The notes beneath the pieces were generated by a model, which worked only from the letters and a program-made list of their open reading frames with translations, ran no database searches and was not told the DNA's origin. Shown piece after piece: positions 20,309 to 60,586 of a stretch of DNA of 64,000 bases. The position numbers were made by a program, and so were the translations under genes. The stretch lies in NCBI RefSeq assembly GCF_004135975.1, contig NZ_CP026538.1, forward strand, positions 3,596,001-3,660,000, given 5' to 3'. The DNA is from Solidesulfovibrio carbinolicus (GTDB taxonomy: Bacteria; Desulfobacterota; Desulfovibrionia; Desulfovibrionales; Desulfovibrionaceae). Positions within the stretch are counted from its first letter, which is position 1, and every line of letters begins with the position of its first letter.

Positions 20309-20460
20309 CCCCGGATAACCATTCCCCTGGAATCCCAGGCCACGAGGTTATCCATCGAGAAAAGGGCTACGGACTATCTCCGTAAACCATTGAAATATCT
20401 GGCCGGAAAGAGAGGAACGGTTGTCCGGGGCGACCCAATGTCCAAATGTCAGGGGGCGGG
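20309..20460. repeat. degenerate tRNA-Pro downstream repeat (copy 1)
   Basis: The order of elements is as at 52830-52972: CCCCGGATAACCATT, GGAATCCCAGGCCA, GGTTATCCA, a GAAAAGGGGCTACGG-type terminator hairpin, then TTGAAAT-TCTGG. Here the tRNA part is reduced to CTGGCCGGAAAGAGAGGAAC, with several substitutions. A GGGGCGACCCAATGTCC segment, which precedes the repeat at 52.8 kb in inverted orientation, follows it here. It looks like a decayed attachment site from an older integration. Confidence 0.6.
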
Positions 20461-32569: not shown

Positions 32570-33128
32570 CCTCAGGGCTGGCAGGCAGACCCAAACAAGG
32601 CCGATGGGAATAATGGAGACAGCCAGGGACATCATCCCGCGCAGGCCGCCCCCCTGAGTTTCGTGAATTGGAGCCGCCCCGGCTCCGCATTTCCCTAGAA
32701 TCCCAGGCCAAAAGATTATCCAGGCAGGTTATCCAACAGAAAAAGGGGTCAGATCTTTCGATCTGACCCTTTGAAATCTCTGGTCGGGATGAGAGGATTT
32801 GAACCTCCGCCCCCCTGAACCCCATGGGCCGGGCACCTGATCTGAATTCTGAAATCATTGGATATTTTTTTGAAAATGATAACTTTTTTCCGACATACCT
32901 GCTTGGCGACGAAGGGGAACGGTTCTCCAGATGTTATCCAGATTGCAGCGGCGGCCCCGGGAAAAATATCCCCCTGTTCTAGGTCAAAACGCCCTCTCCC
33001 CTCTCCTCGCCTTGGATAACATCCAAAAATCTATTACAGCCGATCTCCTTGACCAACAGTCCCCCAAAGGGGATAAGTCAAGTACCTCTCTCGCCGCTCA
33101 TACTTACAAACCAAGGGGGACTTCATCC
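32570..33128. other. non-coding region with tRNA-Pro att copy
   Basis: No gene. It contains the attachment-site repeat (32671-32824), then an AT-rich 300-bp stretch with an 11-bp inverted repeat (GATGTTATCCA at 32930-32940, complement at 33013-33023) upstream of the glutaredoxin gene. Confidence 0.5.
32671..32824 (-). repeat. tRNA-Pro 3' end repeat (copy 2, att-like)
   Basis: On the minus strand 32781-32824 reads as the 3' part of a tRNA: anticodon-loop end GGGGTTCAG, T-arm GGAGGTTCAAATCCTC, and acceptor strand with CCA (TCATCCCGACCA). It is followed by a tRNA-type terminator hairpin (32744-32772, GGGTCAGATC and complement) and the GGTTATCC/GGAATCCCAGG-type blocks. It agrees with 52928-52972 in 44 of 45 bases, but the hairpin stem differs from that copy. 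No 5' half of the tRNA is attached. Confidence 0.8.
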
Positions 33129-38313: not shown

Positions 38314-38713
38314 ATTCAGGCAACTTTTGACGAGCCAAGCTTTCGTTCACCTGGGTTTCTCGCCTGGAGAAGCGTTTCAATTCTATTGAAGCCATGCAGA
38401 CATCCTGCTCGGCGGACTACCGGCGCTGGTGAAGTGGCGCATGTGCGGCTCTGTTACAGCCGAATGTGTTATAAGAACACTGTTCAAACAATTCCTTCTG
38501 TGACCAAAGTCTTACTCGAAAAAAGCTCGCGGCCAATTCCTTTTGTACATTTGGCTTGAAACCTCCCCAAGAAACGAAGAGTCCTTCTGTAGCTCCGAAC
38601 TTGGTGACGGCTCCCAGCAACTTGTCGACGGTCGGACGGTCGGTAGGCGTCAAGCCTGACTTCACCTCGACGCAAAGCCGTGGCTGTCCAAATCCATACG
38701 GTGTATTCTATCC
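38314..38713. other. region after the signalling operon, mostly remnant
   Basis: Holds the N-terminal restriction endonuclease fragment (38417-38710, minus) and no other recognisable element. I see no clear terminator for the signalling operon. Confidence 0.4.
38417..38710 (-). pseudogene. restriction endonuclease N-terminal/catalytic fragment
   Basis: The minus-strand frame reads YGFGQPRLCVEVKSGLTPTD, then VDKLLGAVTKFGATEGLFVS, WGGFKPNVQKELAASFF and RVRLWSQKELFEQ before leaving the family. The E-V-K of CVEVKSG and the Q-K-E-L region match the catalytic core of Mrr-like type IV restriction endonucleases. There is an in-frame stop just upstream and no start codon with a ribosome-binding site. 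The final residues overlap in content with the C-terminal fragment at 33474-33627. Confidence 0.7.
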
Positions 38714-39856
38714 CTATTTTATTTTCATACTCCGACGAAAACGCACAACTGCTGCTGAAGCTTTAGTGGCAAGTTCGCAGGCCAAGGTTTTTGACGCCAG
38801 AAAAGAACCCGTCTCGGCCAGTTTGTTGGAAGGCGAGCCGCCGCCGCAGAGCATGAAGTCCTTGCACAAAGCACGGCAGTTAAGGATCCCCTGCCGTATT
38901 TCCTGCCAAATGCGCAAAAAACGATCGTTCCACCTGATGTCCCGCACATGATCAAGATGCACATTGCCTAATATCAAGCTGCCGTGAACAGGGTGCGTCA
39001 TACTGTTGAGTTCCGGCGAAAACGTCGACAAACCGCCCTGGGCATTGACTGTGACGTGATGCCACGGCAGGCAGGTCCCTGAGGCGCGGGGACGCTCGTC
39101 GTCCAGAGCGTCCTCGATCTCCTGGAGTTCCCGAATGACCATGTCGCTGCCCCGGCTGTCCGTTTGCTGCGCGAATTCCTGCAGAAAGGCGGCGAAGTCT
39201 TCAGCTCTGCCGGCGGCATCGGTGGCAAGGGACGTCGTGCGGTTTTCGCCCTCAATTTCCTCAGGGTTGAAGGATAGCCGCCGCAGTCCGTGGTCATAGA
39301 AAAAATCGGCCAGTTCTTTCCCGTAGTCCAACGTGCCCGCCGTTACGACGCAGAGTATCGCGGGCACCAAGCCTGCGTCGTGCAGTCGCGCGATGCCGTT
39401 CAGGGCGCGGTCGAAACTGCCCCGCCCTGAGGCAAAACGTCGATTGGCGTCGTGGAGGGCGGCGAAACCGTCGAGGCTCACGCCGACAGCCACATCATGG
39501 TCCCGCAGAAATGCGGCCCAATCTCGGTCGAGCAAGGTGGCGTTCGTCTGTATGCTGTGGCGGATAGCCACGCCGGGTCCAAGTCGCCTGCGGATGGCGC
39601 TGAAAGCCTGCTCGAAAAAAAGGCGGCCTGCCAGCAAAGGCTCCCCCATGTGCCAGGATACCCGCAGTTCGCTGCCTATCAGACCGGCATCGGCGAGGTT
39701 GTCCACGGCCCGGCCGGCCGTCTCCACGGACATGGACGTCGTCGGCTGATCATGGGGCAAATAGCAATACCGGCAGCGCAGGTTGCAGGCCGTGGTTGGC
39801 TGCAGGGTGAGAAGAGCCGTTTTCAGTTTCATGGATTCGGGCCCTGTATCCTGCAT
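38714..39856 (-). CDS. GrrM-type radical SAM/SPASM peptide maturase
   Basis: 380 residues. The radical SAM motif is CNLRCRYC (C24, C28, C31) followed by YLPHDQ. Then come SWHMGEPLLAG, IQTNATLLDRDWAAFLRDHD, VGVSLDG and FNPEEIEGENR. The C-terminal motif is CRALCKDFMLCGGGSPSNKL with AETGSF, binding auxiliary clusters. All these blocks are those of cyclophane-forming maturases of the GrrM/OscB group, which link an aromatic side chain to a neighbouring residue in a RiPP precursor. The usual Gly-rich GrrA precursor is not next to it. The start may be the internal ATG at 39832 (MKLKTALLTLQPT), as neither has a strong ribosome-binding site. Last gene of the minus-strand RiPP operon. Confidence 0.88.
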   Translation of the reverse strand: MQDTGPESMKLKTALLTLQPTTACNLRCRYCYLPHDQPTTSMSVETAGRAVDNLADAGLIGSELRVSWHMGEPLLAGRLFFEQAFSAIRRRLGPGVAIRHSIQTNATLLDRDWAAFLRDHDVAVGVSLDGFAALHDANRRFASGRGSFDRALNGIARLHDAGLVPAILCVVTAGTLDYGKELADFFYDHGLRRLSFNPEEIEGENRTTSLATDAAGRAEDFAAFLQEFAQQTDSRGSDMVIRELQEIEDALDDERPRASGTCLPWHHVTVNAQGGLSTFSPELNSMTHPVHGSLILGNVHLDHVRDIRWNDRFLRIWQEIRQGILNCRALCKDFMLCGGGSPSNKLAETGSFLASKTLACELATKASAAVVRFRRSMKIK

Positions 39857-39870
39857 GTCATGCGTCGTAT

Positions 39871-41400
39871 TTATAATTCCCGTGGAACGTAAGGGGCCAG
39901 TTGTTGAAGCATACTCGGCAGGTCACGCTGTTTGTCCCCGCGAAAATTGATTGCCCGCCAACCCGATGCCGTCTCCTCGGCTGTAAAGCCTGAAAGCGTC
40001 TGGCTCGCAAAAAGGCCCAGTGCAGCCAATAAGACCTCGCGGGTGCGCTCCCGGCGAACCACATGCCGATCAGCACAGACAGCCAAATCAGCCGCAACAA
40101 CGCAGCCACCGCCGTCGAGGAGTCCAAAGGGAAAGACGGCATCCATGGCGTCAGACCCGATCTCCAGGCGGCCAGCCTGACTAGGGAACAACTGGACGCC
40201 GTCGCGACCATAGGTGCCCACGCGTCTATCCGCTCTTCCCGCCTCTTCGTAACAGGCGTATATGTCGCCAAAAGGATCCAAAAGATAGCAGTGTTCCTTA
40301 GCCCTCATGCAGTATTCCGCCGCCATTGGGCCAGGACCGGTTTCAGCGACGGCAAGACGGGCCAAGGCAGCGGCATGGCGCGTCACATCTGAACCAATGT
40401 GGTTGGCAAACCTCGCGAGATCTTCGGCCGAAACCATTTCTAGACCATCATCAAGGTGTTCACCCGGCACATTACGGATGGCTGCGGCATAGGGGTGGAT
40501 GTTCTCCATGGCAAGCAAACCGGCCTTGTCTAGAATATCCAAAAGAGAATCCAAGGCTTGGCGGCGAGCTGGTTGCAAATGCAAGCGCAAGTCGATGGCA
40601 ACGCCTGTCTGGCTGGCCGCCTCAACATGAGCCAATATCAAAGCAAACGCATCGCTTCTTGCTCGACCGTGGCCCTGGCCCCCAAAACATGCCGGGTCTG
40701 CATCCAAGGCGATTTGCAACCGGGAGATCGTTCCCGGCCCCTGTCCCAGGACATCCAGGTAGCCGGCCAGTTCCAAGCCATTGGTCACGGCCTCCACTTC
40801 GGCCCCGCCGGCTTTGGCGTGATGCAAAAGCCGCTGCACCGTATCCCGATGGCGGTTACGCAAAGGCTCGCCGCCGTACAGGACATAGCACATGCGATGC
40901 GCCGGCACGTCTGGGCACAATGCCGGTTGGACTTGACGCCAAATCGCATCGATGTCTTTCGGGGCAAGGCGGACATCGCCCAGTCTTGCACGGATATCTC
41001 GCTGAAAACAATAAGGACAGTCCAGATTGCAGGCATAGGACAACGCCAACATAAGATACCCTGTTTGGCGTTGAAGATGCCGGTTGAGCCAACGGATCAT
41101 CCGAAAGTACTGCAAGAATAACGTCTTTTCCTCGAACAGGGACAGGGACGTAACATGGCCCCGCGCAGCAAGTCCTGCAAGGTGCTTCGAATAAAAACCT
41201 GACAGTCCAAGAGGTTCGTGCGAAAGCCGAGACTCCCAGGCATCGGCAAGCCAATGGCCAAAAGCGCCGGACACCACGTCCAAACAGCCGTTGAGCGTAT
41301 GAAACAGGACAGCGCCGCCTTCGTGCCGCCGCAAAATGCTCAAAGCACTGGGACGCCATGCCGGCGCGACGCCCAGGGGCTCATTGCCGTCCGGGTTCAT
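39871..41400 (-). CDS. radical SAM protein with N-terminal peptide-binding-like domain
   Basis: 509 residues. The N-terminal ~110 residues (AVLFHTLNGCLDVVSGAFGH, LAARGHVTS) look like the small domain that precedes many RiPP radical SAM maturases and binds leader peptides. The radical SAM motif is CNLDCPYC (C124, C128, C131), followed by YGGEPLRNRHRDTV. A SPASM-like region has EYCMRAKEHCYLLDPFGDIY and ACYEEAG, then a ~110-residue tail with few Cys. I start at the ATG at 41400 because GGAGGGAGG lies eight bases upstream; the frame is open to 41469. It overlaps the ABC transporter gene by 20 bases. Probable modification enzyme for the peptide at 45334-45522; the reaction is unknown. Confidence 0.8.
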   Translation of the reverse strand: MNPDGNEPLGVAPAWRPSALSILRRHEGGAVLFHTLNGCLDVVSGAFGHWLADAWESRLSHEPLGLSGFYSKHLAGLAARGHVTSLSLFEEKTLFLQYFRMIRWLNRHLQRQTGYLMLALSYACNLDCPYCFQRDIRARLGDVRLAPKDIDAIWRQVQPALCPDVPAHRMCYVLYGGEPLRNRHRDTVQRLLHHAKAGGAEVEAVTNGLELAGYLDVLGQGPGTISRLQIALDADPACFGGQGHGRARSDAFALILAHVEAASQTGVAIDLRLHLQPARRQALDSLLDILDKAGLLAMENIHPYAAAIRNVPGEHLDDGLEMVSAEDLARFANHIGSDVTRHAAALARLAVAETGPGPMAAEYCMRAKEHCYLLDPFGDIYACYEEAGRADRRVGTYGRDGVQLFPSQAGRLEIGSDAMDAVFPFGLLDGGGCVVAADLAVCADRHVVRRERTREVLLAALGLFASQTLSGFTAEETASGWRAINFRGDKQRDLPSMLQQLAPYVPREL

Positions 41401-43093
41401 GCAGCCGACCTCCCTCCAGGATGCAAACTCGGGAGTGTTCATCAATGGCGTTCTCGGCGTGGGAAACAACGATCACAAAGCGGTCGCGGCAAACACGCCG
41501 TATTGTTTCCATGACGCGACTGGCGTTTTCCGCGTCCAAACCACTCGTGGGCTCGTCGATGACGATGATGTCAGCGTCCTTCACCAAGGCTCGGGCCAGG
41601 GCGATGCGTTTTTTCTGCCCAAGAGAGAGGTTGGAGCCACCTTGGCGCAGGTTCGGCCCGTCTTCTCCGGCGGCGGTGTCCTCGGAATCAAGGAGTCCTT
41701 GCAGTCCGACGCTGGCCAGCACTTGACGGGCTTGGGACGTCGATATCCAATCACGTCCCAAACGGACGTTTTCCACAAGGCTGTCGGCAAATACAAAGGG
41801 CTCTTGTTCCACGTAAGCTGTCATCCGACGTCTATCGGCCGAGGGCAAAGGCTCGCCGTCCAGCAGGATATCTCCTTTCTCCTGTTCGAAAAGCCCGGCG
41901 ATGATCTTGAGCAAGGTGGTTTTGCCTGATCCGGATTCACCCATGATGACCAGCAGATCGCCTCGGGCCAAAGTCAGGGAGATGCCTTCCAATGCGCCTC
42001 GCTCCTGCTCCCCATATCGAAAAGACAGGTCGCGTAACGTCAGGTGCCGGCCTCCCGGAGCAGTGGTTTTGACCCCAAGCGATTCTCTGGGGAGGCGAAG
42101 CAGTTCGTTGACCCGGGTAAGCCCCACCAGCCCCCCCTGGGCGCTCACAAAGTATTCCACGGTCCGGCGCAGAGCGGGAAATAGGTAAGCCATGAAGGCC
42201 GACAAGGCCACAAAGGCCCCAAGATTGAAGGAACCACCCAAAATAAGAAAGGCGCATACCATAAGGATGGCCACGGGCAGCACGTTACTGATCCAGAGGA
42301 TGACGGCGTAAGAGGCGGCTCGCATACGCATCATCCGGTCTGCCGCTCGGATGGAAACAGCGAAAGAGCGGGTGAAGCTGTCCGTGAGATAAATTTTCGA
42401 GTGCATCTTGGCCACTTCCGGGGCACCCAGAAGATTGCAATAGAGGCCGTTGTCCTCGGCTGTCGCGTCATAGAATGTATCGGTCAGCAGGCGTATGCGT
42501 TCTCCAAAGTGGCCCAGGAGAAATACGTAGACAGGGATGGCCGCCATGACCAGCAGCGTCGGTTTTAAAGCGATAATAGCCATGGCGACTAGACAAACCA
42601 GTACAGTGATGGCGTTTTCGCAAACGGAGATCAGGTTGTCATAGAAAGCGGACAAGGCCATGTCCGTATCGTTGAAGATTCGCGCTCCCAAGGCTGTGGG
42701 CTCTTCCTCCGCCAGCAACGCCAAGGGCGTCGTCAGCACGTGGTCGAGAACCTGCAAGCGCAGATCGCACAAAAGCATCCTGTATTGACGGAAGATGATA
42801 ACCCCGTGCCAGTAGCTGACGCATCGTTCGAAGGTGACCGCCCCCAGGGCGAGCAAGCCATAAAAGACGATCTTCCAAGGATCACCCTGGACTTCCACGA
42901 GGTTGACGATGGCCTTGGAGAGCAGCGGCACCGGCAAGATGAGCGCGGTTGAGCAAAAAACGAGCAAGGCCACGCCGCAAAAGCTTCCAGGGTACCGGGC
43001 AATACAGTGCAGGGCGAAGCGGAGCCCCTCGTAGAGGGTGTCGCCGTTCTTGCCGGGATCGCTTGGCGTCCAAAACACATTGCGCTGCGTCAT
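41381..43093 (-). CDS. ABC exporter of the RiPP cluster
   Basis: 570 residues, half-transporter with six TM helices (about 30-300) and a nucleotide-binding domain (about 335-565) with Walker A MGESGSGKTTLL, the Q-loop VEQEPF, signature NLSLGQKKRIALARAL, Walker B DIIVIDEPTSGLD and the switch His (VVSHAE). It should work as a homodimer. It lacks an N-terminal C39 peptidase domain, so it cannot cleave a double-glycine leader. Its position between radical SAM genes suggests it exports the mature peptide. It starts 10 bp after the stop of the upstream radical SAM gene. Confidence 0.93.
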   Translation of the reverse strand: MTQRNVFWTPSDPGKNGDTLYEGLRFALHCIARYPGSFCGVALLVFCSTALILPVPLLSKAIVNLVEVQGDPWKIVFYGLLALGAVTFERCVSYWHGVIIFRQYRMLLCDLRLQVLDHVLTTPLALLAEEEPTALGARIFNDTDMALSAFYDNLISVCENAITVLVCLVAMAIIALKPTLLVMAAIPVYVFLLGHFGERIRLLTDTFYDATAEDNGLYCNLLGAPEVAKMHSKIYLTDSFTRSFAVSIRAADRMMRMRAASYAVILWISNVLPVAILMVCAFLILGGSFNLGAFVALSAFMAYLFPALRRTVEYFVSAQGGLVGLTRVNELLRLPRESLGVKTTAPGGRHLTLRDLSFRYGEQERGALEGISLTLARGDLLVIMGESGSGKTTLLKIIAGLFEQEKGDILLDGEPLPSADRRRMTAYVEQEPFVFADSLVENVRLGRDWISTSQARQVLASVGLQGLLDSEDTAAGEDGPNLRQGGSNLSLGQKKRIALARALVKDADIIVIDEPTSGLDAENASRVMETIRRVCRDRFVIVVSHAENAIDEHSRVCILEGGRLHEPGRQ

Positions 43094-43103
43094 AGCGTCT
43101 CGT

Positions 43104-44111
43104 TCACGAGGTACATTTCCTGGCGGCCAGCCGCTGGGAGATCTCCGCTGCCGTGTAGGGGATCACCTCCGGCGAATCCGTGACCGCCAGATACGATTGG
43201 TACAGGCCGCCGCAAAAGGCCTTTATGGCGCACTGCGTGCAAACCTGTGCGTATGAACGTTCGTGGGCGTTAAGCGGTTGAAACATGGCGGCATCTTCGA
43301 CTGATTCTGACAGATTGAAATCCTTGAGCCCAACAATGTTGAGCGTATTGGCTTTCTGAAAATCCAGACACAGGTGCTCCCGTCCCCGCAGCAGGCAAGG
43401 CGGAATGTTGTCCGCGTAGACAGCTTGGCCGTTTTGCAGCAAGAAATCGCAGGCAGCCAGCAAGCCAGGCAGGACGGCGGCATAGGGCGTCATGAGATCC
43501 AGGTATTTCTCATAGGAACCGGCCTGGATGACGCAGTACGAGAACAGGACGTAGACTGGCCTATAGGGCAAAAGAAAACGGGCCATGGACTCCAGGCCGT
43601 TGCAGTTATGGGCATGAATGACGTGAACGAGGGTCAGGTCGAGGTGGACGTGCTCCCGCAGGGCAAGAATGTTGGCGAGGCCTTCTTGCGTTTCCCGAAA
43701 ACTGCCGGACACACGAGTGACCGCGTCATGCAAGCCGGCATGGTCCGCATGGACCGGAACATGGAAGTGATCCACTCCTGCGGCGACCAAGGCTTCGAGC
43801 CAGCTCCTATCCCGAAGGGCGCGGCCGTTGGTCAGCACACTGACGCCCAGACCGCCCTGACGCAGCCGACTTGCAAGCTCCGGCAGATCGGGCCGCAATG
43901 TCGGCTCTCCGCCGCTGATGCCGACCCGACCTAAGCCAGAATCGACGGCCACGGCCAAAGTGCGCGTCACGATTTCGTCCAGGGAGGGGAGATCCTCGAT
44001 CGCTTGCGGCTTGTCCTTGTCGTAGCAATAGAGGCAGTTGTTGTTGCAGCGTAGGTCTGGAGCGATGATGACGAAACCCGTCGGGCCGGAAAGCGCGGAT
44101 GCGTCAGGCAT
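43104..44111 (-). CDS. radical SAM peptide maturase, tandem copy B
   Basis: 335 residues. FVIIAPDLRCNNNCLYCYD contains the motif C22-x3-C26-x2-C29, then GISGGEPTLRPDLPELA, VLTNGRALRDRSWLEALVAA and FHVPVHADHAGLHDAVTRV. The C-terminal Cys set is PPCLLRGREHLCLDF and CTQCAIKAFCGGLYQSYLAV, for at least one more cluster. It is clearly a duplicate of the gene at 44104-45135 (about 40 percent identical by eye) and starts within its last 8 bases, so the pair is translationally coupled. They resemble each other more than they resemble the two larger radical SAM proteins of the cluster. Likely acts on the precursor peptide. Confidence 0.88.
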   Translation of the reverse strand: MPDASALSGPTGFVIIAPDLRCNNNCLYCYDKDKPQAIEDLPSLDEIVTRTLAVAVDSGLGRVGISGGEPTLRPDLPELASRLRQGGLGVSVLTNGRALRDRSWLEALVAAGVDHFHVPVHADHAGLHDAVTRVSGSFRETQEGLANILALREHVHLDLTLVHVIHAHNCNGLESMARFLLPYRPVYVLFSYCVIQAGSYEKYLDLMTPYAAVLPGLLAACDFLLQNGQAVYADNIPPCLLRGREHLCLDFQKANTLNIVGLKDFNLSESVEDAAMFQPLNAHERSYAQVCTQCAIKAFCGGLYQSYLAVTDSPEVIPYTAAEISQRLAARKCTS

Positions 44112-45135
44112 GGGCTGTGTCCTGTTGCGCCGGCGTCGTCGCCGTTTGGATCATGGCGCGCATTTCATCCATGGAAAAGGGCCGCAGATCGTCACGGCCA
44201 AAAGCTGCGAGGTGCGAACGGTAGACGCCGCCGCAAAAAGGTTCCAGGACACAACGTCCGCAGGGAACCGGCCGGGCGCGTTGTCTGCTTTTGATGGATT
44301 GTTCGAGCCCCTCGAAGGACGGGAGCCCCCTGTCGCCGGCAGCTTTTAGACCGTGAACACGTAGCCGGTTGTACTTGTGGAAGTCTAAACACATCGTTTC
44401 CAGGCCGCGCATGGCGCAGGGAGGAACATTCTCCAGGTAAACGGGCATATCCGCCGCAACGATGGCCGGCAGGGCTGCTTTTAGGGCATCAACTGTCTCC
44501 TGGAACGGCACGAGCAGTTCCTGCTGAGACTCGGGAGATTCATTTTCCACAATACAGGACGAAAAAAGAATGTAGTCCGGCATGAAACGCGCGGCAAAAT
44601 CAATGAACGCCGCCAAGCGCTTTACGTTTCCCGTGTGCACGACCTGGACAATGGAGAATTTGAAAATGCTTTCCCGCCGCAGCGCCATGATATTCTGTAT
44701 TCCAGCCAGTGCCTGCCGGAAGCTGCCCTGGCTTCGCGTGGTGGCGTCATGGCGGTCCTCCTGGTCCGCATGCAGGGGAATGTGGAAATGACCGACGCCG
44801 GCCTCGACCAATTCGCGCAACCGATTCTCGTCGGCCATAGTTCGGCCGTTTGTCAGCAGACATACGGAAATTCCGGCCTCGGTCAATGCCCGGACGTAAG
44901 ACGTCAGATGCGGGTAAAGAGTTGGTTCTCCACCGCTTATCGCTACACTGGAGAGACCAGTACTGCGCGCTAAGCCAATGGTCCTGTCGAACAGTTCGTC
45001 TACGCTTGGCACAGCGCGAAAGGCATTGTCCCGATAATTCTCGTAGCAAAAAATGCAATTATTGTTGCATAAAAGCGTTGGACTGATGACGATAAAACCT
45101 TTCCGTGAGCCCATCGAGAGGAGAACTTGGTCCAT
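44104..45135 (-). CDS. radical SAM peptide maturase, tandem copy A
   Basis: 343 residues. FIVISPTLLCNNNCIFCYEN contains C23-x3-C27-x2-C30, then AISGGEPTLYPHLTSYVRAL, LLTNGRTMADENRLRELVEA and FHIPLHADQEDRHDATTRS. The C-terminal part has PPCAMRGLETMCLDFHKYNR and CGRCVLEPFCGGVYRSHLAA, so auxiliary cluster binding is likely. It lies 198 bp downstream of the precursor peptide, a gap with a GC-rich hairpin, and is the first enzyme of the operon. With copy B it could form a heterodimer or modify successive sites. Confidence 0.88.
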   Translation of the reverse strand: MDQVLLSMGSRKGFIVISPTLLCNNNCIFCYENYRDNAFRAVPSVDELFDRTIGLARSTGLSSVAISGGEPTLYPHLTSYVRALTEAGISVCLLTNGRTMADENRLRELVEAGVGHFHIPLHADQEDRHDATTRSQGSFRQALAGIQNIMALRRESIFKFSIVQVVHTGNVKRLAAFIDFAARFMPDYILFSSCIVENESPESQQELLVPFQETVDALKAALPAIVAADMPVYLENVPPCAMRGLETMCLDFHKYNRLRVHGLKAAGDRGLPSFEGLEQSIKSRQRARPVPCGRCVLEPFCGGVYRSHLAAFGRDDLRPFSMDEMRAMIQTATTPAQQDTAHA

Positions 45136-45217
45136 TTCAGTTTCTCGGCGCTAAGCACTTGTTATGAAAACAGCGCCACCCCACCCGAACCATCCAACCG
45201 CCCCGGACAGAGAGGCA

Positions 45218-45241
45218 CCGCCGGGAAAACTTGTCCGGCGG
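45218..45241 (-). promoter_or_regulatory. intra-operon hairpin between precursor and enzymes
   Basis: On the minus strand CCGCCGG (45241-45235) pairs with CCGGCGG (45224-45218) around a 10-base AT-rich loop. No T-run follows, so it is not a full terminator. In RiPP operons such hairpins between the precursor and the enzymes give excess precursor mRNA by partial termination or 3'-end protection. That role is inferred from position. Confidence 0.45.
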
Positions 45242-45333
45242 CACCAACTGGAGACGGAGTAGGCACAGCAGCCAATCCTGCGAACAACCGAAAAAGCCAA
45301 GCAGAAAGTTATAAGCAAAAGCCTCTCCAATAG

Positions 45334-45522
45334 TTACTTCGGCCTGGGCTTAGACTTCTTCTTTCCACCTCCGAAATCACCGCAGTAATCTCGATAAAAA
45401 AGGATCCGAGGATCAGCTGTGCCGAAGATTGGCAGCAACTCTTCAAGCGTTAACTCTTCCTTGCTCTCGTTCTGCCCCGCTGCGATCCCCACTTGAAGAA
45501 CAGTCTGGCGCTTCTTTTCCAT
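45334..45522 (-). CDS. candidate RiPP precursor peptide
   Basis: 62 residues. N-terminal MEKKRQTVLQVGIAAG and the acidic helix ESKEELTLEELLPIFG have the look of a leader peptide; the C-terminal part, TADPRILFYRDYCGDFGGG then KKKSKPRPK, is the likely core, with F, Y, Y, F, one Cys and a Gly triplet followed by a basic tail. Aromatic residues next to Arg/Asp and Gly fit substrates of cyclophane- or thioether-forming radical SAM enzymes. The start is firm: AAGGAG lies seven bases before the ATG and a good promoter precedes it. It is the first gene of the minus-strand operon of four radical SAM proteins and an ABC exporter. I know no described precursor family with this sequence. Confidence 0.8.
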   Translation of the reverse strand: MEKKRQTVLQVGIAAGQNESKEELTLEELLPIFGTADPRILFYRDYCGDFGGGKKKSKPRPK

Positions 45523-45565
45523 GACATTCTCCTTTTACAAAACAGGTTCTTTACTCCTACCATCA

Positions 45566-45594
45566 GTTATCGCCTAGGAGGCGAATACTGTCAA
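45566..45594 (-). promoter_or_regulatory. sigma70-type promoter of the RiPP operon
   Basis: On the minus strand a perfect -35 box TTGACA (45594-45589), a 17-base spacer and a -10 box GATAAC (45571-45566) precede the precursor start by about 44 bases. Confidence 0.75.
45570..45584. promoter_or_regulatory. palindrome within the promoter spacer, likely operator
   Basis: TCGCCTAGGAGGCGA is a perfect 6-base inverted repeat around AGG, located in the spacer between the -35 and -10 boxes. A dimeric regulator bound here would block or re-shape the promoter. No regulator gene is in the cluster. Confidence 0.6.
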
Positions 45595-45842
45595 CCCCGC
45601 ATCGATGCCACGTTCATCAAACACGACACTTTCTGACAATCACTTCCGCCGCAGCCCTCAACCCCTGGCCCCGCCCCAAGCCCCTGCCCCGGACAGCCCC
45701 CAGGCGCGCGATCTCCTCCCCTCCCTGGGCCGTTTCCAAAGGCCCAGGGGCAAATCCCCACCCATTCCCCAAAAACAAAGCGCGGCCCTTATGCCGACCG
45801 CTAGAATACTACTTTGAACAAATGAGCATCTATTAGACATGG

Positions 45843-46558: not shown

Positions 46559-49500
46559 TTGGAATTCAAACTATTCACAGGTCTTGCACACAACATTTCA
46601 CTGCTTTTAGCGGTGGCCCTGCTCTTCGACGTCACAGCGACTCGCTGGAAAATCGGAGAAGCAAAGCCACGCCAATGGCTTGTGGGTCTCCTGCTCGGAG
46701 CAGTCGGCCTCGTGGTCATGTCTACGCCCTGGACATTGATGCAAGGGGTGGTTTTTGACACCCGTTCAGTACTCCTCGGCATTTCGGGGCTTTTCTTTGG
46801 TTTGATTCCCACGACCATCGCTGTGGGAATCACCGCAGCCTACCGCCTTCACCAAGGAGGTCCCGGAGCTTGGACCGGCGTCTATGTGATCCTGGCATCC
46901 GGAGCGATTGGCATTCTGTGGAGATATTTCCGACGCAGCGGCCTTGCACGCCTTTCTTTTGGGGAACTCCTGATCTTCGGCCTGGCTATCCACTTGGCGA
47001 TGCTAGGGTTGATGCTGACCCTCCCATCGGACATCGCTTGGAATGTCTTGTCGAAGATTACCCTGCCGGTGTTGCTGATCTATCCTTTGGGCACGTCCCT
47101 TTTGGGAAAGCTCATGTCATCCCGGGCCGCTCGAGAAGAGGAGAAGGTCAAAACCCTAGAAAGCGAGGAAAAATATCGCGCTCTGTACGCCTCGGTCATG
47201 GACCCAATCCTTGTCGCCGAGACGGATACAGGCATCATCGTCGAGTGCAACCCCGCCGCCGAGGAACTATTTCATCGGTCGCGCAAGGAACTGCTGGGGA
47301 TGCATCAAAGCGACCTTCATCCGGCCGGGGATGTCGTTCCTCACACAAAGACGCCGCAATTCTGTCGACAAGTAGCATCCCCTGACCAAGTCCAGGAAGT
47401 CCGCTTCAGCCGGTCTGACGGCGATATCCGAACAGCCTTGGTTCGTGCCAGCGTTTTTCATCTGCAGGGGCGGGCGCTCATCTTAGGTGTCTTTCACGAC
47501 ATCACCGAACGCAAGGCATTTGAAGAGGCATTGATCAAATCCGAGCAAAAATGGCGTCATGTCCTGCTCAATACCCCGCAAATAGGTATCTCTCTTGACG
47601 TCAAGGCCAAGGTCCTTTTTGCCAACCAGTATTTTCTTGACCTGACGGGATGGCGCGAAGAAGAGATCTTGGGGCTAGATTGGTTTGATCTTTTCATCCC
47701 GACCGACGTTCGCGAGCAAGTCCGAAGTGTCTTTAATGCCGTCATGTCACAGCAGCACATTCATGGTTTCTCTACATATGAAAACGAAATCATGACGCGC
47801 TCTGGAGAAAAGCGTGTCATCTCTTGGGCAAACGCCCTGACTTTGGACCACAAGGGCTACGTTATAGACGTCACCTGCCTTGGCGTGGATGTGACTGAGC
47901 GCCGCAGAGCTGAGCAGGCTCTTCGAGACAGCGAAGATCGCTACAGACGCCTAGTCGAGACCGCAAACGAAGGCATTTGGTCAATCAATGCCGAGCATGT
48001 GATTACACTCGTTAACCACGCCATGGCCGAAATGCTCGGATATGAAGTCAAAGAAATAATAGGACACAAGGTAGAAGATTTCATTTTTCCAGAAGAGCTT
48101 GACCAGCATACTGAAAAGATGCAAGCCCGGCATGCCGGAGCAAGCGACATATATGAACGCAGACTGACACGCAAAGATGGATCTATTCTTTGGACTATTG
48201 TTTCTGCAAAGGCCCTAACAGACGACAAAGGAACCTTCCTCGGCGCGTTCGCCATGTTCACAAACATTACCGAGCGCAAACACATGGAGGAGAAGCTACG
48301 CGCCAACGAGTCACGTTTAATCAGCCTGGTCGAGGTTCTACAGCATCCATTCACTGAACCTCAAGAGTTCCTCGACTTTGCCCTCCACGAAGCGATCCGT
48401 CTCACAGAAAGCAAACTCGGTTATATCTACCTCTACGACGAGGAAACTGAGCGCCTCACCCTGAATTCTTGGTCAAGGGACGTCATGCATGAGTGCACAA
48501 TCGTAAAACCCCATACCCACTACCAATTAAAAGGTACCGGGGTGTGGGGTGAAGCTGTGCGCCAACGATCACCTATTGTCATCAACGATTTTCAAGCAAC
48601 CCATCCATTGAAAAAAGGCTACCCTGATGGCCACGCAAAGCTATATTCCTACATGACTATTCCCGTTTTCAGGGAAGGAAAAATCGTTTCTGTCGTGGGA
48701 GTCGCTAACAAGGAAGGCGAGTACACCGACACCGACATTTATCAACTCAGCCTGCTCATGGATGCTGTATGGAAGGTGCTCGACCGCGAAGAAGCCGAAT
48801 CAACTCTTCGTGAAAGAGAAGCACAGTTGGCCTCCCTGAGCGACAACCTCCCCCAAGGCATGGTCTATCAGCTAGACAGTGGAACAGACGGCACCCTACG
48901 CCACTTTACCTATTTGAGCGCGGGGGTCATGAAACTCCACGGAGTCTCCCCGGAGCAGGTTTTGGCTGACGCAAATATTCTTTACAGTCAAATTATTGAA
49001 GAAGACAGGGCGGCTCTAGCTGAACGAGAAAACCAAGCTATACAAAGCAAGTCGACGTTTAGCGCTGAAGTTCGCATGAAAATGCCATCAGGCGAAATTC
49101 GCTGGCATCTTCTCACCTCAGCGCCGCGACGCATGCTGAACGCCCACACCATTTGGGATGGCGTCGAAATCGATATCGATGACCTCATGAAATCCAAGGA
49201 AGCTGCAGAGAACGCCAACCGCGCCAAGTCCGAATTCTTGGCGAACATGAGCCATGAGATCAGGACACCGCTCAACGGCGTCTTGGGCATGCTTCAGCTT
49301 CTCGAGACAGCCCCTCTCGGCGCAGAGGAAAAAGAGTATGTCGACGAGGCAATTACAGCCTCAAAACGATTGACAAATCTTCTTTCGGACATCCTTGATC
49401 TCTCACGAATTGAGGCTGGAAAACTCAACATCAGAATTGACGAGTTCTCTTTAGCGGACATGTTCGATTCCGTTGACGGACTACTCGCAGCTACGGCTCG

Positions 49501-52689: not shown

Positions 52690-53228
52690 CTTGTTTTTCG
52701 GAGGGACAGACATTTTTCGATGAAACCAGGGAGCACGTTGAAGCCCAGGTTCCCCTCGAAATCGCGAACGCACTGAATTTCCACGAGCCTTCTCCGACCC
52801 CCTGACATTCGGACATTGGGTCGCCCCGGATAACCATTTCCCAGGAATCCCAGGCCAATAGGTTATCCACCCGGTTATCCAACGAGAAAAGGGGCTACGG
52901 ATTGGCTCCGTAACCCCTTGAAATCTCTGGTCGGGATGAGAGGATTTGAACCTCCGACCCCCTGAACCCCATTCAGTTCGAGCGGCTTTCCCGTAGTTTC
53001 CCGAATCATCCCAAAAGCCTTGACATCACTGACTTCCCGAGTGATTCACTCTTACCGGACTTTCCCCCGAAATACCCCCCTTTCACCTTAAAAGTGGGGA
53101 CAGGGTGGGGACAGGACGGGACAGAGAACGACCCCCTGATAGTCGAACAAAAAATCAGGGACCACCCCAGGCCCATACGCCCGGAGTGGGGACAGCATTG
53201 AAATTGCAGCTTAATCCGGTCGAGCACA
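52690..53228. other. att region and leader of the integrase gene
   Basis: No gene. Left part: an inverted GGGGCGACCCAATGTCC-type block (52793-52830) and the att repeat (52830-52972). Right part (52973-53228): sequence with short repeated GGGGACAG blocks (around 53095, 53110 and 53190, and again at 53258), possibly arm-type sites for the integrase. Confidence 0.5.
52830..52972 (-). repeat. tRNA-Pro 3' end repeat (copy 3), attL of the element
   Basis: On the minus strand 52972-52928 reads ATGGGGTTCAGGGGG, T-arm GGAGGTTCAAATCCTC, acceptor TCATCCCGA and CCA: the 3' part of tRNA-Pro with anticodon GGG. Beyond it lies a terminator hairpin (52886-52917, GGGGTTACGG and complement, T-run on the minus strand). 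To the right, where the tRNA 5' half should be, the sequence is unrelated. So the intact tRNA is expected at the far right end of the element, outside the window. The integrase starts 257 bp to the right. Confidence 0.85.
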
Positions 53229-54545
53229 ATGAAAAACCGGCCCAAAACGGGGACAGGTCCGAATTCACAGGACAAATCACAAGCCCCGCGCGCGAGCACA
53301 AGCATGAAATGGCATCAAACCAGCTTCCCAGGCGTGCGCTACCGGGAGCACCCCGAACGCAAACATGGCATCAAGCCTGACCGCTACTTTGCCATTCGCT
53401 GCCAAGCGGACGGCAAACGCCGCGAGGAAGGCCTTGGCTGGGGCTCCGAGGGCTGGACCGCCCAAAAGGCCGCCGTGGTCCTGGCCGATCTTAAAAAAGC
53501 CCACGTGACCGGCGAAGGGCCTAAAACCCTACAAGCCAAGCGCGACCTCGAAAAGACCCGGGAGGAAGCCGAGGCCCGACAAAAAGCCATCCAGGAGACC
53601 GAGGCCGTCACGTTCGGTTCCATCTTCGAAGGCGTCTACCTGGAGAGCGCCCGGCAGAATAAAAAGCCGAACTCTGTCCAAACCGAGAAGGGCCTTTTCA
53701 AAAAGTGGGTTGGCCCGGTCATTGGCGACGTGCCCCTGAAAGACATTTCCCCGTTCCATCTGGAGCGGATCAAAAAGAACATCGCCGCCGCCGGACTTTC
53801 GGCCAGAAGTGCCCACTACGCCCTTTGCGTCGTGCGCCAAGTCTTCAATTTCGCCCGGGACCGCGACATGACCGCGTGCGTCTCGCCCACCAACAAAGTC
53901 AAAGCTCCCAAGACCGACAACCGCCGCTTGCGGTTCCTGACCCGGGAAGAGGCCGCCAAGCTCCTTGAGCACTTGGCGAAGCGAAGCCCCGAACTGCACG
54001 CCATTTCCCTGGTCTCCCTGCATTGCGGCCTTCGCGCCGGGGAGGTCTTTAGCCTCATGTGGTCGGACGTGGACCTTGACCGGGAGACGCTTACCCTTCG
54101 GGACACCAAAAACGGCCGAACCCGCATCGCCTACATGACGGGGCAAGTCCGCGAACTTCTCGCGGCCAGACCACGGGGAGGGCCCGGGGATGCCGTCTTT
54201 CCCGGCCGGGGAGGTGTTCGCCGCTCCTACGTCTCCAACGCCTTTGAACGCGCAGTCAAGGACCTCGGCTTTAACGAGGGCATCACCGATTCCCGGCAAA
54301 AGGTAGTTTTCCACTCCTTGCGCCACACGTTCGCGTCCTGGCTGGTCGAACAGGGAACGGACCTGTACAGCGTCAAGGAGCTTATGGGGCATCGCACGTT
54401 GTCCATGACGGAACGCTACAGCCACCTTTCGCCGGACAGCCTGCGCCGGGCCGTCAAAGGGCTCGAAACCGGCAGCGCGGCCCGAACTGAAGAAAGCAAG
54501 GTGGTAGGCCTGGGCGACGGGCACAAGAGGCGGCAAACCTCATGA
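53229..54545 (+). CDS. tyrosine integrase of the tRNA-Pro element
   Basis: 438 residues, phage-type tyrosine recombinase. An N-terminal arm-binding domain (about 25-95; FPGVRYREHPERKHGIKPDR) is followed by a SAM-like core-binding domain (about 125-215) and a catalytic domain (about 235-410) with R269 (CGLRAGEV), H362 and R365 (FHSLRHTF), H388 (LMGHRTL) and nucleophile Y397 (MTERYSHL). All catalytic residues are present. It would recombine the att copies at tRNA-Pro. The start may be the ATG at 53304 (MKWHQTSFPGV), since the first 25 residues look unstructured. It overlaps the Fic gene by four bases. Confidence 0.95.
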   Translation: MKNRPKTGTGPNSQDKSQAPRASTSMKWHQTSFPGVRYREHPERKHGIKPDRYFAIRCQADGKRREEGLGWGSEGWTAQKAAVVLADLKKAHVTGEGPKTLQAKRDLEKTREEAEARQKAIQETEAVTFGSIFEGVYLESARQNKKPNSVQTEKGLFKKWVGPVIGDVPLKDISPFHLERIKKNIAAAGLSARSAHYALCVVRQVFNFARDRDMTACVSPTNKVKAPKTDNRRLRFLTREEAAKLLEHLAKRSPELHAISLVSLHCGLRAGEVFSLMWSDVDLDRETLTLRDTKNGRTRIAYMTGQVRELLAARPRGGPGDAVFPGRGGVRRSYVSNAFERAVKDLGFNEGITDSRQKVVFHSLRHTFASWLVEQGTDLYSVKELMGHRTLSMTERYSHLSPDSLRRAVKGLETGSAARTEESKVVGLGDGHKRRQTS

Positions 54546-55732
54546 GGCCCGAAGCATTCACCAGCCAGGCTTCCGGCCAGGTCATGCGCGTTGGCCAGGG
54601 CGAAGCAGCCTACCACGCCTTTGTTCCGACGCCCTTGCCTCCGGCCTTCGGCTTGGACCCTGAATTGATTTTGACCCTCTCCGATGCAGACCGGGCCTTG
54701 GGCGAGCTGGCGGGGCTTGGCCGGGCCATCGCCAACCCGTCCTTGCTGGTCCGCCCTTTCATGCGCCAGGAAGCTGTCCTGTCCTCCCGCATCGAAGGCA
54801 CTCAAGCCGATCTTGCGGACCTCTACGGCTACGAGGCCGGCCAACTGCTGTTGCCGGGCGTGCGCCCGCGAAAGCAGGCGTCCGACGTGCGGGAGGTGTT
54901 CAACTACGTCCAGGCCATGGAATACGGCCTGGAACGCCTGGAGACCCTGCCTTTAAGCCTGCGTCTTATCCGCGAAGTCCACGCCCGGCTCATGACAGGC
55001 GTTCGCGGGGACACGGCAACGCCCGGCGAGTTTCGACGTTCACAAAACTGGATCGGCCCGCCCGGCTGCCTCCTTGCCACGGCGAGTTATGTTCCGCCGC
55101 CCGTGCCCGAGATGACCGAGGCCCTGGCCGCTTTCGAAAAATACCTGCACGAAGGGAACGCCTACCCGCCCCTGGTGCGGCTGGCCTGCATCCACTACCA
55201 ATTTGAGGCCATACACCCGTTCATTGACGGCAACGGCCGCGTCGGTCGGTTGCTTGTCCCGTTGCTCATGGTCTCGTGGGGACTCTTGCCCCACCCGCTT
55301 TTGTACTTGAGCGTCTACTTCGAGCGACGGCGAGAGGATTACTACCGGCTGCTCATGGCTGTCAGCACCCACGGCGACTGGCGGGCCTGGATAGCCTTTT
55401 TCCTGCATGGCGTGGCTGACCAAGCCCGGGACGCCGTTGCCCGGGCCAAGCGCCTGCAAGACCTGCAAGCCGGCTGGCGGGACACCCTGCAAAAGGAAAG
55501 GGCTTCGGCCCTGGTTCTGCGTCTGGCCGATGCCCTCTTTGACCAACCCATTTTGACCATCCCCGTGGCGGCCGAGGTCCTGGGCACGTCCTATCCCTCG
55601 GCCAAGGCCGCCGTAGCCAAGCTGGAAGCCATCGGAGCCTTGCGCCAAGTGACGGCCGAGGGCACGGCCAAGACCTACGCGGCAACGGGCATCCTGGACA
55701 TTGTCGCGGGTGACAACAAATCCGCCAATTAA
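54542..55732 (+). CDS. Fic family protein (predicted AMP-transferase)
   Basis: 396 residues. A Fic_N-type domain (about 25-110) contains the autoinhibitory motif SSRIEG (S81-E85-G86), the Fic core has HPFIDGNGRVGR (H225 to R236), intact for catalysis, and the C-terminus is a winged helix (about 310-390; VAAEVLGTSYPSAKAAVAKL). Fic enzymes transfer AMP or other NMPs to protein hydroxyls. The internal inhibitory motif means no separate antitoxin is needed. This single-chain layout is common in chromosomes of bacteria, but here the gene is read through from the integrase (ATGA overlap), which ties its expression to that of the integrase. Confidence 0.93.
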   Translation: MRPEAFTSQASGQVMRVGQGEAAYHAFVPTPLPPAFGLDPELILTLSDADRALGELAGLGRAIANPSLLVRPFMRQEAVLSSRIEGTQADLADLYGYEAGQLLLPGVRPRKQASDVREVFNYVQAMEYGLERLETLPLSLRLIREVHARLMTGVRGDTATPGEFRRSQNWIGPPGCLLATASYVPPPVPEMTEALAAFEKYLHEGNAYPPLVRLACIHYQFEAIHPFIDGNGRVGRLLVPLLMVSWGLLPHPLLYLSVYFERRREDYYRLLMAVSTHGDWRAWIAFFLHGVADQARDAVARAKRLQDLQAGWRDTLQKERASALVLRLADALFDQPILTIPVAAEVLGTSYPSAKAAVAKLEAIGALRQVTAEGTAKTYAATGILDIVAGDNKSAN

Positions 55733-59050: not shown

Positions 59051-60586
59051 ATGTCAAACGACATTTTGAGCTTGTACCAGGGCATGGGGTTTACGGCCAA
59101 ACAGAAGACCGCGACCGAATTTGCCGGCCCTTGCCCGGCCTGCGGCGGTAATGACCGCTTCTGCATCTGGTGCGGCGGCGAGGGCAAGCACGGCCTGGGG
59201 CGATTCTACTGCCGGGGCTGCGGGCTTCAGGGCGATGCCATCCAGTTCTTGCGAGAGTTTCAGGGCTTCGGCTACGGCAAGGCCTGCCGCGAACTTGGCC
59301 TGACGCCGGCCGCGCCATCCGGCAGAAGCGCCGCCCGTGAGCCAGACGCACCGACCCCGGTCACGCCCGCGTGGACGCCCAAACCCGGCGAACTGCCCAA
59401 CTCACGATGGCAAGCCCAGGCGCGGAAGCTCATCCCTTGGGCCGCGCGGCAACTCCAAGCCACGCCTGACGCCCTGTCCTGGCTCTTGGCCGAACGCGGA
59501 TTGACCCCCGAAACGGCCGCCCGCTTTCATGTCGGCTGGCTCCCCGATGACCTTTACCGTGACCGTACCGCCTGGGGCCTGCCCCAGGAATTCAAGCCGA
59601 ACGGGAAGCGCCGCATGTTGTGGCTCCCCCGTGGCCTCGTGCTGCCGGTCCTCGACGCCTCGGGCAAGCCGGCACGCATCAAGTTTCGCCGCCCAAACCC
59701 CGGCCAGGACGAGCCCAAATATCTTTACCTGCCGAGCCTGCCCAAGAATACCGCGCCCTTGACCATCGCCGGCACGGCCGCCGCCTGGATCGTGGTGGAA
59801 AGCGAACTGGATGGGCTCCTTCTCGCCCAGGCAGCCGGCGACCTTGTCAACGTCCTGGCCCTTGGCTCGGCGTCCTTGCGTCCGGACGCCGAGGCCCACG
59901 CCCGCCTTGAAACGGCGGCGTTTATTCTTGTGTCCCTCGACGCCGACGATGCCGGCGACAAGGCGGCCTGGACATGGTGGGCCACCCACTACCCGCCCGA
60001 AAAGCTCCGCATCTGGCCCGTGCCCGAAGGTAAAGACCCGACCGATGCGTGGCGCGCCGGATGGGATTTGCGCGCCTGGATCGAAGCCGGCCTACCCCCC
60101 CGCTTCATGCCGACGCGGCCGGTCAAAATCGCCGCCCCCGCGCCAAGGCCCGAGCCAGCCCGGCAAGATGAAGAGGCGCAAGAACCACGCCAGGCCCCAG
60201 CCCTGAACGCCATCGCCCCATGCCCTCACCGCGACGATACCCCCGACTCGCCGCCGGCATTGGTCAACGCTCCCGGCCAGAATGCGCACAGGCGGCTTTC
60301 CCGGCCGCGAAAATCAAAACCGACCCCGGACATGGTCCGCAGCTACAAAAGCGGCCGTCGCTGGATTCTGGCCCATCTGGACGCCTTGCTTGCCCATGGC
60401 TGGACACGGCCCGGCCTTTTCCGCGCCGGCCAGTTCAAATTTCCGTGCGGCGGCTGGGGGCTGGCTTGGGCCTCGGCCTGGGGCAAGCCGAACGTCGGTA
60501 GCGTGACCATCGCCGAGGACGGGACCGTCGTCTTTGAACTTAACGAGGCCGGCCGCGTCGTGCGGCAGACCGTGCAAGCAAAATAA
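59051..60586 (+). CDS. zinc-finger/TOPRIM DNA primase
   Basis: 511 residues. A CHC2-like zinc finger lies at about 30-60 (CPACGGNDRFCIWC, FYCRGCGLQGDAIQFL), a primase linker follows, then a TOPRIM domain at about 235-330 (AAWIVVESELDGLLLAQAAG with the catalytic Glu, and ILVSLDADDAGDKAAWTWW with the DxD). The C-terminal ~170 residues are Pro/Arg-rich then a conserved-looking end (VRSYKSGRRWILAHLDALLA). It should synthesise primers for element replication next to the SF3 helicase. The start is the ATG at 59051, with GAGGTAAC upstream. Confidence 0.9.
   Translation: MSNDILSLYQGMGFTAKQKTATEFAGPCPACGGNDRFCIWCGGEGKHGLGRFYCRGCGLQGDAIQFLREFQGFGYGKACRELGLTPAAPSGRSAAREPDAPTPVTPAWTPKPGELPNSRWQAQARKLIPWAARQLQATPDALSWLLAERGLTPETAARFHVGWLPDDLYRDRTAWGLPQEFKPNGKRRMLWLPRGLVLPVLDASGKPARIKFRRPNPGQDEPKYLYLPSLPKNTAPLTIAGTAAAWIVVESELDGLLLAQAAGDLVNVLALGSASLRPDAEAHARLETAAFILVSLDADDAGDKAAWTWWATHYPPEKLRIWPVPEGKDPTDAWRAGWDLRAWIEAGLPPRFMPTRPVKIAAPAPRPEPARQDEEAQEPRQAPALNAIAPCPHRDDTPDSPPALVNAPGQNAHRRLSRPRKSKPTPDMVRSYKSGRRWILAHLDALLAHGWTRPGLFRAGQFKFPCGGWGLAWASAWGKPNVGSVTIAEDGTVVFELNEAGRVVRQTVQAK

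Follow-up and report, generated by a model that had tools for sequence, protein, structure and literature searches.

What is a gene for a 62-residue peptide doing directly ahead of genes for four radical S-adenosylmethionine (SAM) enzymes? The question arises at a locus of Solidesulfovibrio carbinolicus, in a 64,000-nt stretch of contig NZ_CP026538.1 (positions 3,596,001 to 3,660,000) referred to here as the window; positions are counted from its first nucleotide. On the minus strand, from 45522 to 38714, six genes are packed in an operon-like manner: a precursor peptide, two tandem radical SAM proteins (A and B), an ATP-binding cassette (ABC) exporter, a third radical SAM protein (rSAM3) and a GrrM-type maturase. 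Genes A and B share 8 nt, 10 nt separate B from the exporter gene and 14 nt the rSAM3 gene from the GrrM gene, and with the ATG at 41400 as the rSAM3 start the exporter and rSAM3 genes overlap by 20 nt. An initial annotation of the same DNA had proposed this layout; all six genes were recovered at the positions given there, and both members of the tandem pair (43104-45135) pass the radical SAM family PF04055. Judged from the sequence, the locus is very probably a cassette for a ribosomally synthesized and post-translationally modified peptide (RiPP) that acts on the 62-aa peptide, with one precursor, four radical SAM maturases and one exporter.

Conservation of the six genes and their precursor

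The six genes were found in the same order in the window genome, in Solidesulfovibrio magneticus Maddingley MBC34 and in Desulfarculus baarsii, a member of another class. Protein identities to the window copies are 89-97 % for MBC34; for D. baarsii they are 55 % for the exporter (from tblastn), 51 % for B, 48 % for A, 47 % for GrrM and 40 % for rSAM3. Since this order is kept in full in a different class, a chance arrangement of the six genes appears unlikely. The tandem pair was present in 2 of 40 relatives and in 2 of 395 genomes of the phylum; by class, 2 of 247 genomes carried it in that of the window and 1 of 63 in that of D. baarsii. These samples overlap, the pair occurs in three genomes altogether, and it can be called rare only within the set sampled from this phylum. 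Pair and peptide occur together in all three, a co-occurrence that the initial annotation had put forward for checking. Within the genus, the cassette is carried by 2 of 14 genomes. A scan of a genome-contig collection for A and B gave 277 pattern matches with MBC34 as the one relative, and was insensitive in that D. baarsii was not returned. No account of the six-gene cassette was found in the parts of the open-licence literature among the matches listed, an absence that is not proof.

The precursor contains a conserved block, E-x-TLEEL-xx-IFGTADP-x-ILFYRDYC-x-D, followed by a basic tail. Between the window and D. baarsii precursors, which come from different classes, 22 of the 27 block residues are identical, so that the block is better conserved than the other cassette proteins, at only 40-55 % identity across classes. 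The D. baarsii precursor has a shorter N-terminus than the window copy. ILFYRDYC, and YRD within it, is invariant in all three precursors, and on its C-terminal side the precursors have nothing in common but GGG and a few residues.

The ratios of nonsynonymous to synonymous substitution rates (dN/dS) between the window and MBC34 were 0.165 for the precursor, 0.152 for A, 0.128 for B, 0.059 for the exporter, 0.244 for rSAM3 and 0.214 for GrrM, the MBC34 precursor being entered without its last codon and stop. Residues 23-61 of the precursor showed 8 synonymous and 0 nonsynonymous changes and residues 1-22 showed 0.5 and 5.5, respectively, all of these being small numbers. As the substitution pattern and the conservation in D. 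baarsii agree, the functional part of the precursor would start near residue 23. By comparison of the copies, the six genes are shown to form a conserved unit, with purifying selection on the second part of the precursor. TLEEL..IFGTADP is likely the leader and ILFYRDYC-x-D the core, and the near-fixed state of this core suggests a defined product and not a diversifying one.

The precursor matched no NCBIfam family (window copy at E <= 1, D. baarsii copy at E <= 10), and its one Pfam match was below cutoff (Fur_reg_FbpA, 12.9 of 22 bits, E 0.089). A precursor profile found 3 of the 395 sampled phylum genomes at E <= 0.01, namely the window genome, D. baarsii and G160, the last by a match (E 0.0084, 23 residues within a 303-aa frame) that was judged to be chance. 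There was no match among the plasmid records searched. Membership in an unrelated, widespread small-protein family, the outcome that the initial annotation had set against its own interpretation, is therefore not indicated.

Table 1. Positions of the cassette genes and associated features in the window
Feature	Position	Strand	Basis or remark
Precursor, 62 aa	45334-45522	-	ATG start; orthologue 93.5 % identical in MBC34, another in D. baarsii
Radical SAM protein A, 343 aa, HxsC-like	44104-45135	-	PF04055 76.3 bits, cutoff 29.5
Radical SAM protein B, 335 aa, paralogue of A	43104-44111	-	PF04055 72.7 bits, cutoff 29.5
ABC exporter, fused membrane and ATPase domains	41381-43093	-	Pfam ABC_membrane, ABC_tran
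rSAM3, 509 aa: N-terminal extension, radical SAM core, C-terminal Cys	39871-41400	-	weak TIGR04463, TIGR04334 and TIGR04280 matches
GrrM/OscB-type radical SAM/SPASM maturase, 380 aa	38714-39856	-	TIGR04261 311.3 bits, cutoff 310
Shine-Dalgarno sequence of precursor, AAGGAG	45529-45534	-	read from sequence
Promoter-like TTGACA-17-GATAAC	45566-45594	-	read from sequence
Spacer, 198 nt, precursor to A, with G+C-rich hairpin	45136-45333	-	predicted strong fold
Gene remnant at left cassette edge	38474-38701	-	89.5 % DNA identity to 3' part of L047:7089-8123
Sequence beside right edge	45601-45788	+	common to G005 and G001, two partial copies each
Phage-type integrase	53229-54545	+	PF00589; adjoins direct repeat 52822-52972

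The genome of the second class was identified as D. baarsii because the one Nif11-type peptide found in it (111 aa, split 71:40 at VAGG) agrees with Deba_2490 in table 7 of PMC4289311. The Nif11 gene lies about 25 kb from the cassette precursor, so the table entry does not describe the six-gene cassette. The NHLP/Nif11 RiPP clusters resemble the cassette in being radical SAM peptide clusters, and the one reported for D. baarsii shares its region of that genome, but they differ from it in this distance and in that the cassette precursors match neither leader model; nor was the NHLP leader matched among the window open reading frames (ORFs) tested. On the 3' side of the D. baarsii cassette there is an NHLP-leader precursor (L012:15951-16220, 71.8 bits, cutoff 50.9), then a 155-aa frame with a partial radical SAM match (L012:16432-16899) and a protein resembling a daptide intramembrane metalloprotease (L012:16938-18623, 165.5 bits, cutoff 300). 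The NHLP precursor was considered as the true substrate and set aside, both because of its lack of a counterpart among the window ORFs tested and because a conserved short peptide precedes A and B in all three copies.

The radical SAM proteins and the chemistry proposed for them

Protein A carries its radical SAM cysteines at positions 23, 27 and 30 and further invariant cysteines at 240, 249, 292, 295 and 301. The best curated matches of A and B are HxsC4 and HxsC, with 93-109 bits in the window (108.8 for A and 103.7 for B against HxsC4) and 93-114 bits over both lineages; all fail the cutoffs of 500 and 267.9. The cassette resembles the Hxs systems in the affinity of A and B to these models but differs from them in the low scores, in a precursor without His and thus without His-Xaa-Ser repeats, and in having two HxsC-like partners instead of one HxsB and one HxsC. 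In the parts of the literature found, the role of HxsC-type radical SAM proteins is called putative and no proven chemistry is given. A and B are 38 % identical in the window genome and 48 % in D. baarsii. Since the cross-class identities of A with A (48 %) and B with B (51 %) exceed that of A with B in the window genome, two old, separately kept paralogues are suggested.

A fold search with the predicted structure of A (predicted local distance difference test, pLDDT, 65.7) returned radical SAM proteins of a general kind, namely BlsE, DesII, tetraether synthase, viperin, SuiB and SkfB. Among sequences of solved structures, A and B had 33 radical SAM matches, the best being cytosylglucuronate decarboxylase. 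Plasmid records gave 31 matches to A, of which 30 were listed, at 24-32 % identity; these were labelled HxsC, PqqE, NirJ, MoaA, BlsE and others, or were without annotation. One viral contig matched A/B, with 25 % identity over residues 23-162.

For rSAM3, the ATG at 41400, preceded by GGAGGGAGGT, is preferred as the start over a TTG at 41469. Its PF04055 score falls below the cutoff (26.8 of 29.5), as do the scores against TIGR04463 (46.3 of 525 bits for the window copy, 82.8 for that of D. baarsii) and TIGR04280 (32 and 65.6 of 400). It aligns with the TIGR04463, Clo7bot and geopeptide SPASM maturases over the radical SAM core, and for the D. baarsii copy the alignment to TIGR04280 begins at profile position 17; the low scores set it apart from both models. 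In a low-confidence model (mean pLDDT 43.6; residues 1-52 below 50), the N-terminus has the bbb-aaa order that, according to part of PMC12710340, defines RiPP recognition elements (RREs). The N-terminal extension is a possible candidate for a leader-binding domain. Nine sequences of solved structures matched rSAM3 at E <= 10, including MoaA; matches to myosin and pyruvate kinase were dismissed as chance. Plasmid records gave three matches at 25-27 % identity, and their flanks (up to 9 kb) contained no precursor and no ABC match.

The last enzyme of the cassette resembles the maturases of the GrrM/OscB triceptides (TIGR04261), whose cutoff is passed in both lineages (323.9 bits for the D. baarsii orthologue), and its earlier designation as GrrM-type is upheld. 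GrrM/OscB maturases partner with precursors bearing Gly-rich repeats, which is reflected in the name of the model. The cassette differs from these systems in having three extra radical SAM enzymes in the operon and a precursor with a single GGG only, in agreement with the earlier remark that the precursor is not of the Gly-rich repeat kind.

According to passages of PMC11002830, enzymes that form three-residue cyclophanes link the aromatic ring of residue i to the C-beta of residue i+2; the pairs joined are Trp-Asn, Trp-Asp and Phe-Asn for OscB and Tyr-Asp for YxdB. The invariant Tyr-x-Asp triad of the cassette precursor is a motif of the kind cross-linked by YxdB in that source. Because Tyr43-Arg44-Asp45 is an invariant aromatic-x-acceptor triad, we propose a three-residue cyclophane closed there by the GrrM-like enzyme, a proposal whose chances we put at roughly even. 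A GrrM/OscB-type enzyme would here be acting on Tyr, as we infer. The precursor and cassette may accordingly be placed with a triceptide-like type of RiPP, the linkage itself being deduced from the genes.

In the mechanism envisaged, TLEEL..IFGTADP would be recognized by rSAM3 through its N-terminal part, and A and B may bind it as well. The GrrM-like enzyme would abstract a beta hydrogen from Asp45 and bond that carbon to the ring of Tyr43, and A, B and rSAM3 would add one or more further changes to the same core, likely at Phe42, Tyr46 or Cys47, the conserved reactive residues left over. The ABC protein, to judge from its type, would export the product. The initial annotation had described an exporter without a peptidase domain and a cluster without a protease: of the 29 Pfam families matching the ABC protein, the 25 listed include no C39 peptidase domain, and the second statement is correct for the six genes. 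Removal of the leader, if any, would thus be left to a protease coded elsewhere. The TldD/TldE family, often coded outside RiPP clusters (stated in part of PMC10885120), is present in D. baarsii, one of the three genomes searched, but had no match at E <= 1e-5 in the window genome or MBC34 and was rejected as the leader protease for these two.

Alternative substrates and products

That more than one type of radical-installed crosslink is formed, as first suggested in the initial annotation, is plausible because four conserved radical SAM proteins of three types accompany one short core. A more specific version is offered tentatively, at clearly under even odds: the four enzymes would work on ILFYRDYC to install at least two different linkages, for instance a Tyr-Asp cyclophane and a Tyr, Phe or Cys link that the HxsC-like pair may add, giving a defined, exported product similar to a cofactor or metallophore, with the HxsC-like pair as a new class of maturase. 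If true, several linkages on eight residues would extend the known radical chemistry on small peptides. The locus offers a testable system: a single precursor whose core hardly varies, one exporter, and four radical SAM enzymes that can be studied separately; two HxsC-type proteins here adjoin a single candidate substrate, and one copy of the cassette is held by a culture-collection strain, D. baarsii DSM 2075.

Several observations weigh against the interpretation as a RiPP cassette with the chemistry proposed. Three copies are known in total, two of them from one genus, and the cassette is described here at the level of genes. The window GrrM protein clears the TIGR04261 cutoff by 1.3 bits only, its precursor lacks the Gly-rich repeats, and the Tyr-Asp linkage was shown for YxdB, not OscB, in the passages of PMC11002830. 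The N-terminus of rSAM3 has no Pfam match and no relevant NCBIfam match that would support a leader-binding domain, and its structural model is of low quality. In D. baarsii, A and B are as similar to each other as A is to its orthologue (48 %), which weakens the argument for an old duplication and leaves its age unsettled. The NHLP precursor that follows the D. baarsii cassette means that some of the enzymes might serve another peptide there.

The last point bears on a narrower reading, in which only the GrrM-like enzyme and rSAM3 act on the peptide and A and B act elsewhere, for example on a host protein. The adjoining second precursor would suit it, as would the affinity of A and B to HxsC-type models for which the parts of papers found give no proven chemistry; but in each of the three copies A and B come immediately after the precursor, and we hold this reading to be improbable. 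Far less credible is a non-RiPP operon of radical SAM genes in which the 62-aa ORF is fortuitous. The frame is short and fits no curated family, yet 22 of 27 block residues are kept in another class, a Shine-Dalgarno sequence precedes the frame in both, and the 8 synonymous against 0 nonsynonymous changes in residues 23-61 already contradict such an origin. The RiPP cassette is the preferred reading.

Two further proposals concern the role of the product and are compatible with such a cassette. An exported antibacterial, bacteriocin-like RiPP serving competition falls only a little short of an even prospect. The dedicated ABC exporter is consistent with it, and in a sister genome the same hotspot holds type I restriction-modification and candidate-defence genes; against this, the core is nearly invariant across classes, bacteriocin cores usually vary, and an immunity gene is not evident among the six genes. 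Alternatively, the Tyr/Asp/Cys core might be modified, cut out and exported as a peptide-derived cofactor or metal binder. Such a route would resemble those to PQQ and mycofactocin, which start from short conserved precursors; the greater conservation of the block than of the enzymes across classes fits a fixed chemical product, and the core offers two Tyr, two Asp and one Cys. Still, this role seems unlikely, though less so than an action of A and B elsewhere: the cassette is without a protease and is accessory in the genus, with other sequence at its place in two relatives, and its surroundings showed no obvious user enzyme or receptor, though none was searched for systematically.

Upstream region and genomic setting

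The strong ribosome-binding site and promoter claimed for the precursor in the initial annotation were confirmed in the first part only. An AAGGAG stands before the precursor, and a Shine-Dalgarno sequence is found in the window and in D. baarsii, but the promoter-like TTGACA-17-GATAAC, with a TTGACA-16-GATAAT counterpart in MBC34, was not called by a consensus promoter scan that found 3 sites against 2.9 in shuffles. In the spacer between the precursor and A, the hairpin or centre and the 3' end are nearly identical in MBC34; the spacer had no Rfam match, and its hairpin is a possible attenuator candidate. A second peptide coded there (a 59-aa frame from TTG at 45151-45330, 62 aa in MBC34) was also considered, but indels and changes are spread throughout the frame and a structured spacer is preferred.

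The G+C contents at third codon positions (GC3) were 0.57-0.71 for the six cassette genes and 0.70-0.85 for six of seven other window genes, the seventh being a kinase gene at 46559 with 0.56. The left flank of the window, which ends at 38369, is matched at 96 % in the sister genome G005; 1.6 kb of other sequence come next there, followed by a match of 82.5 % to 45601-45788, and the SRPBCC-like gene on the right side of the cassette is 11-12 kb more distant in this genome. In G001, 8.7 kb lie between the counterparts of 38474-38701 and 45601-45774, and this segment carries a type I restriction-modification system and PDC-S02 candidate-defence genes. The gene from which the remnant at 38474-38701 derives is intact in G001 and matches the candidate-defence model PDC-S02. 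The left edge is firm because it cuts this gene, while the right edge is less firm because G005 and G001 each have the sequence at 45601-45788 as two partial copies.

Direct repeats at 32675-32825 and 52822-52972 frame the cassette region and are possible attachment sites of integrative elements. Because relatives carry other sequence at the site, and in view of the edges and the flanking repeats and integrase, the cassette looks like exchangeable accessory cargo. The alternatives at the hotspot, 38370-45600, are the type I restriction-modification system (L047:7400-16157) or the 1.6 kb (L046:12420-14053), in which a 385-aa frame had no PADLOC match.

The direct repeat has a third, short copy at 20309-20354, and the two long copies, taken on the minus strand, resemble the 3' end of a tRNA gene, although neither ARAGORN nor Rfam calls one. 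A Fic protein (54542-55732) that overlaps the end of the integrase gene matches the SoFic defence model with 397 bits, and a 511-aa protein (59051-60586) weakly matches a DRT-related model with 29 bits.

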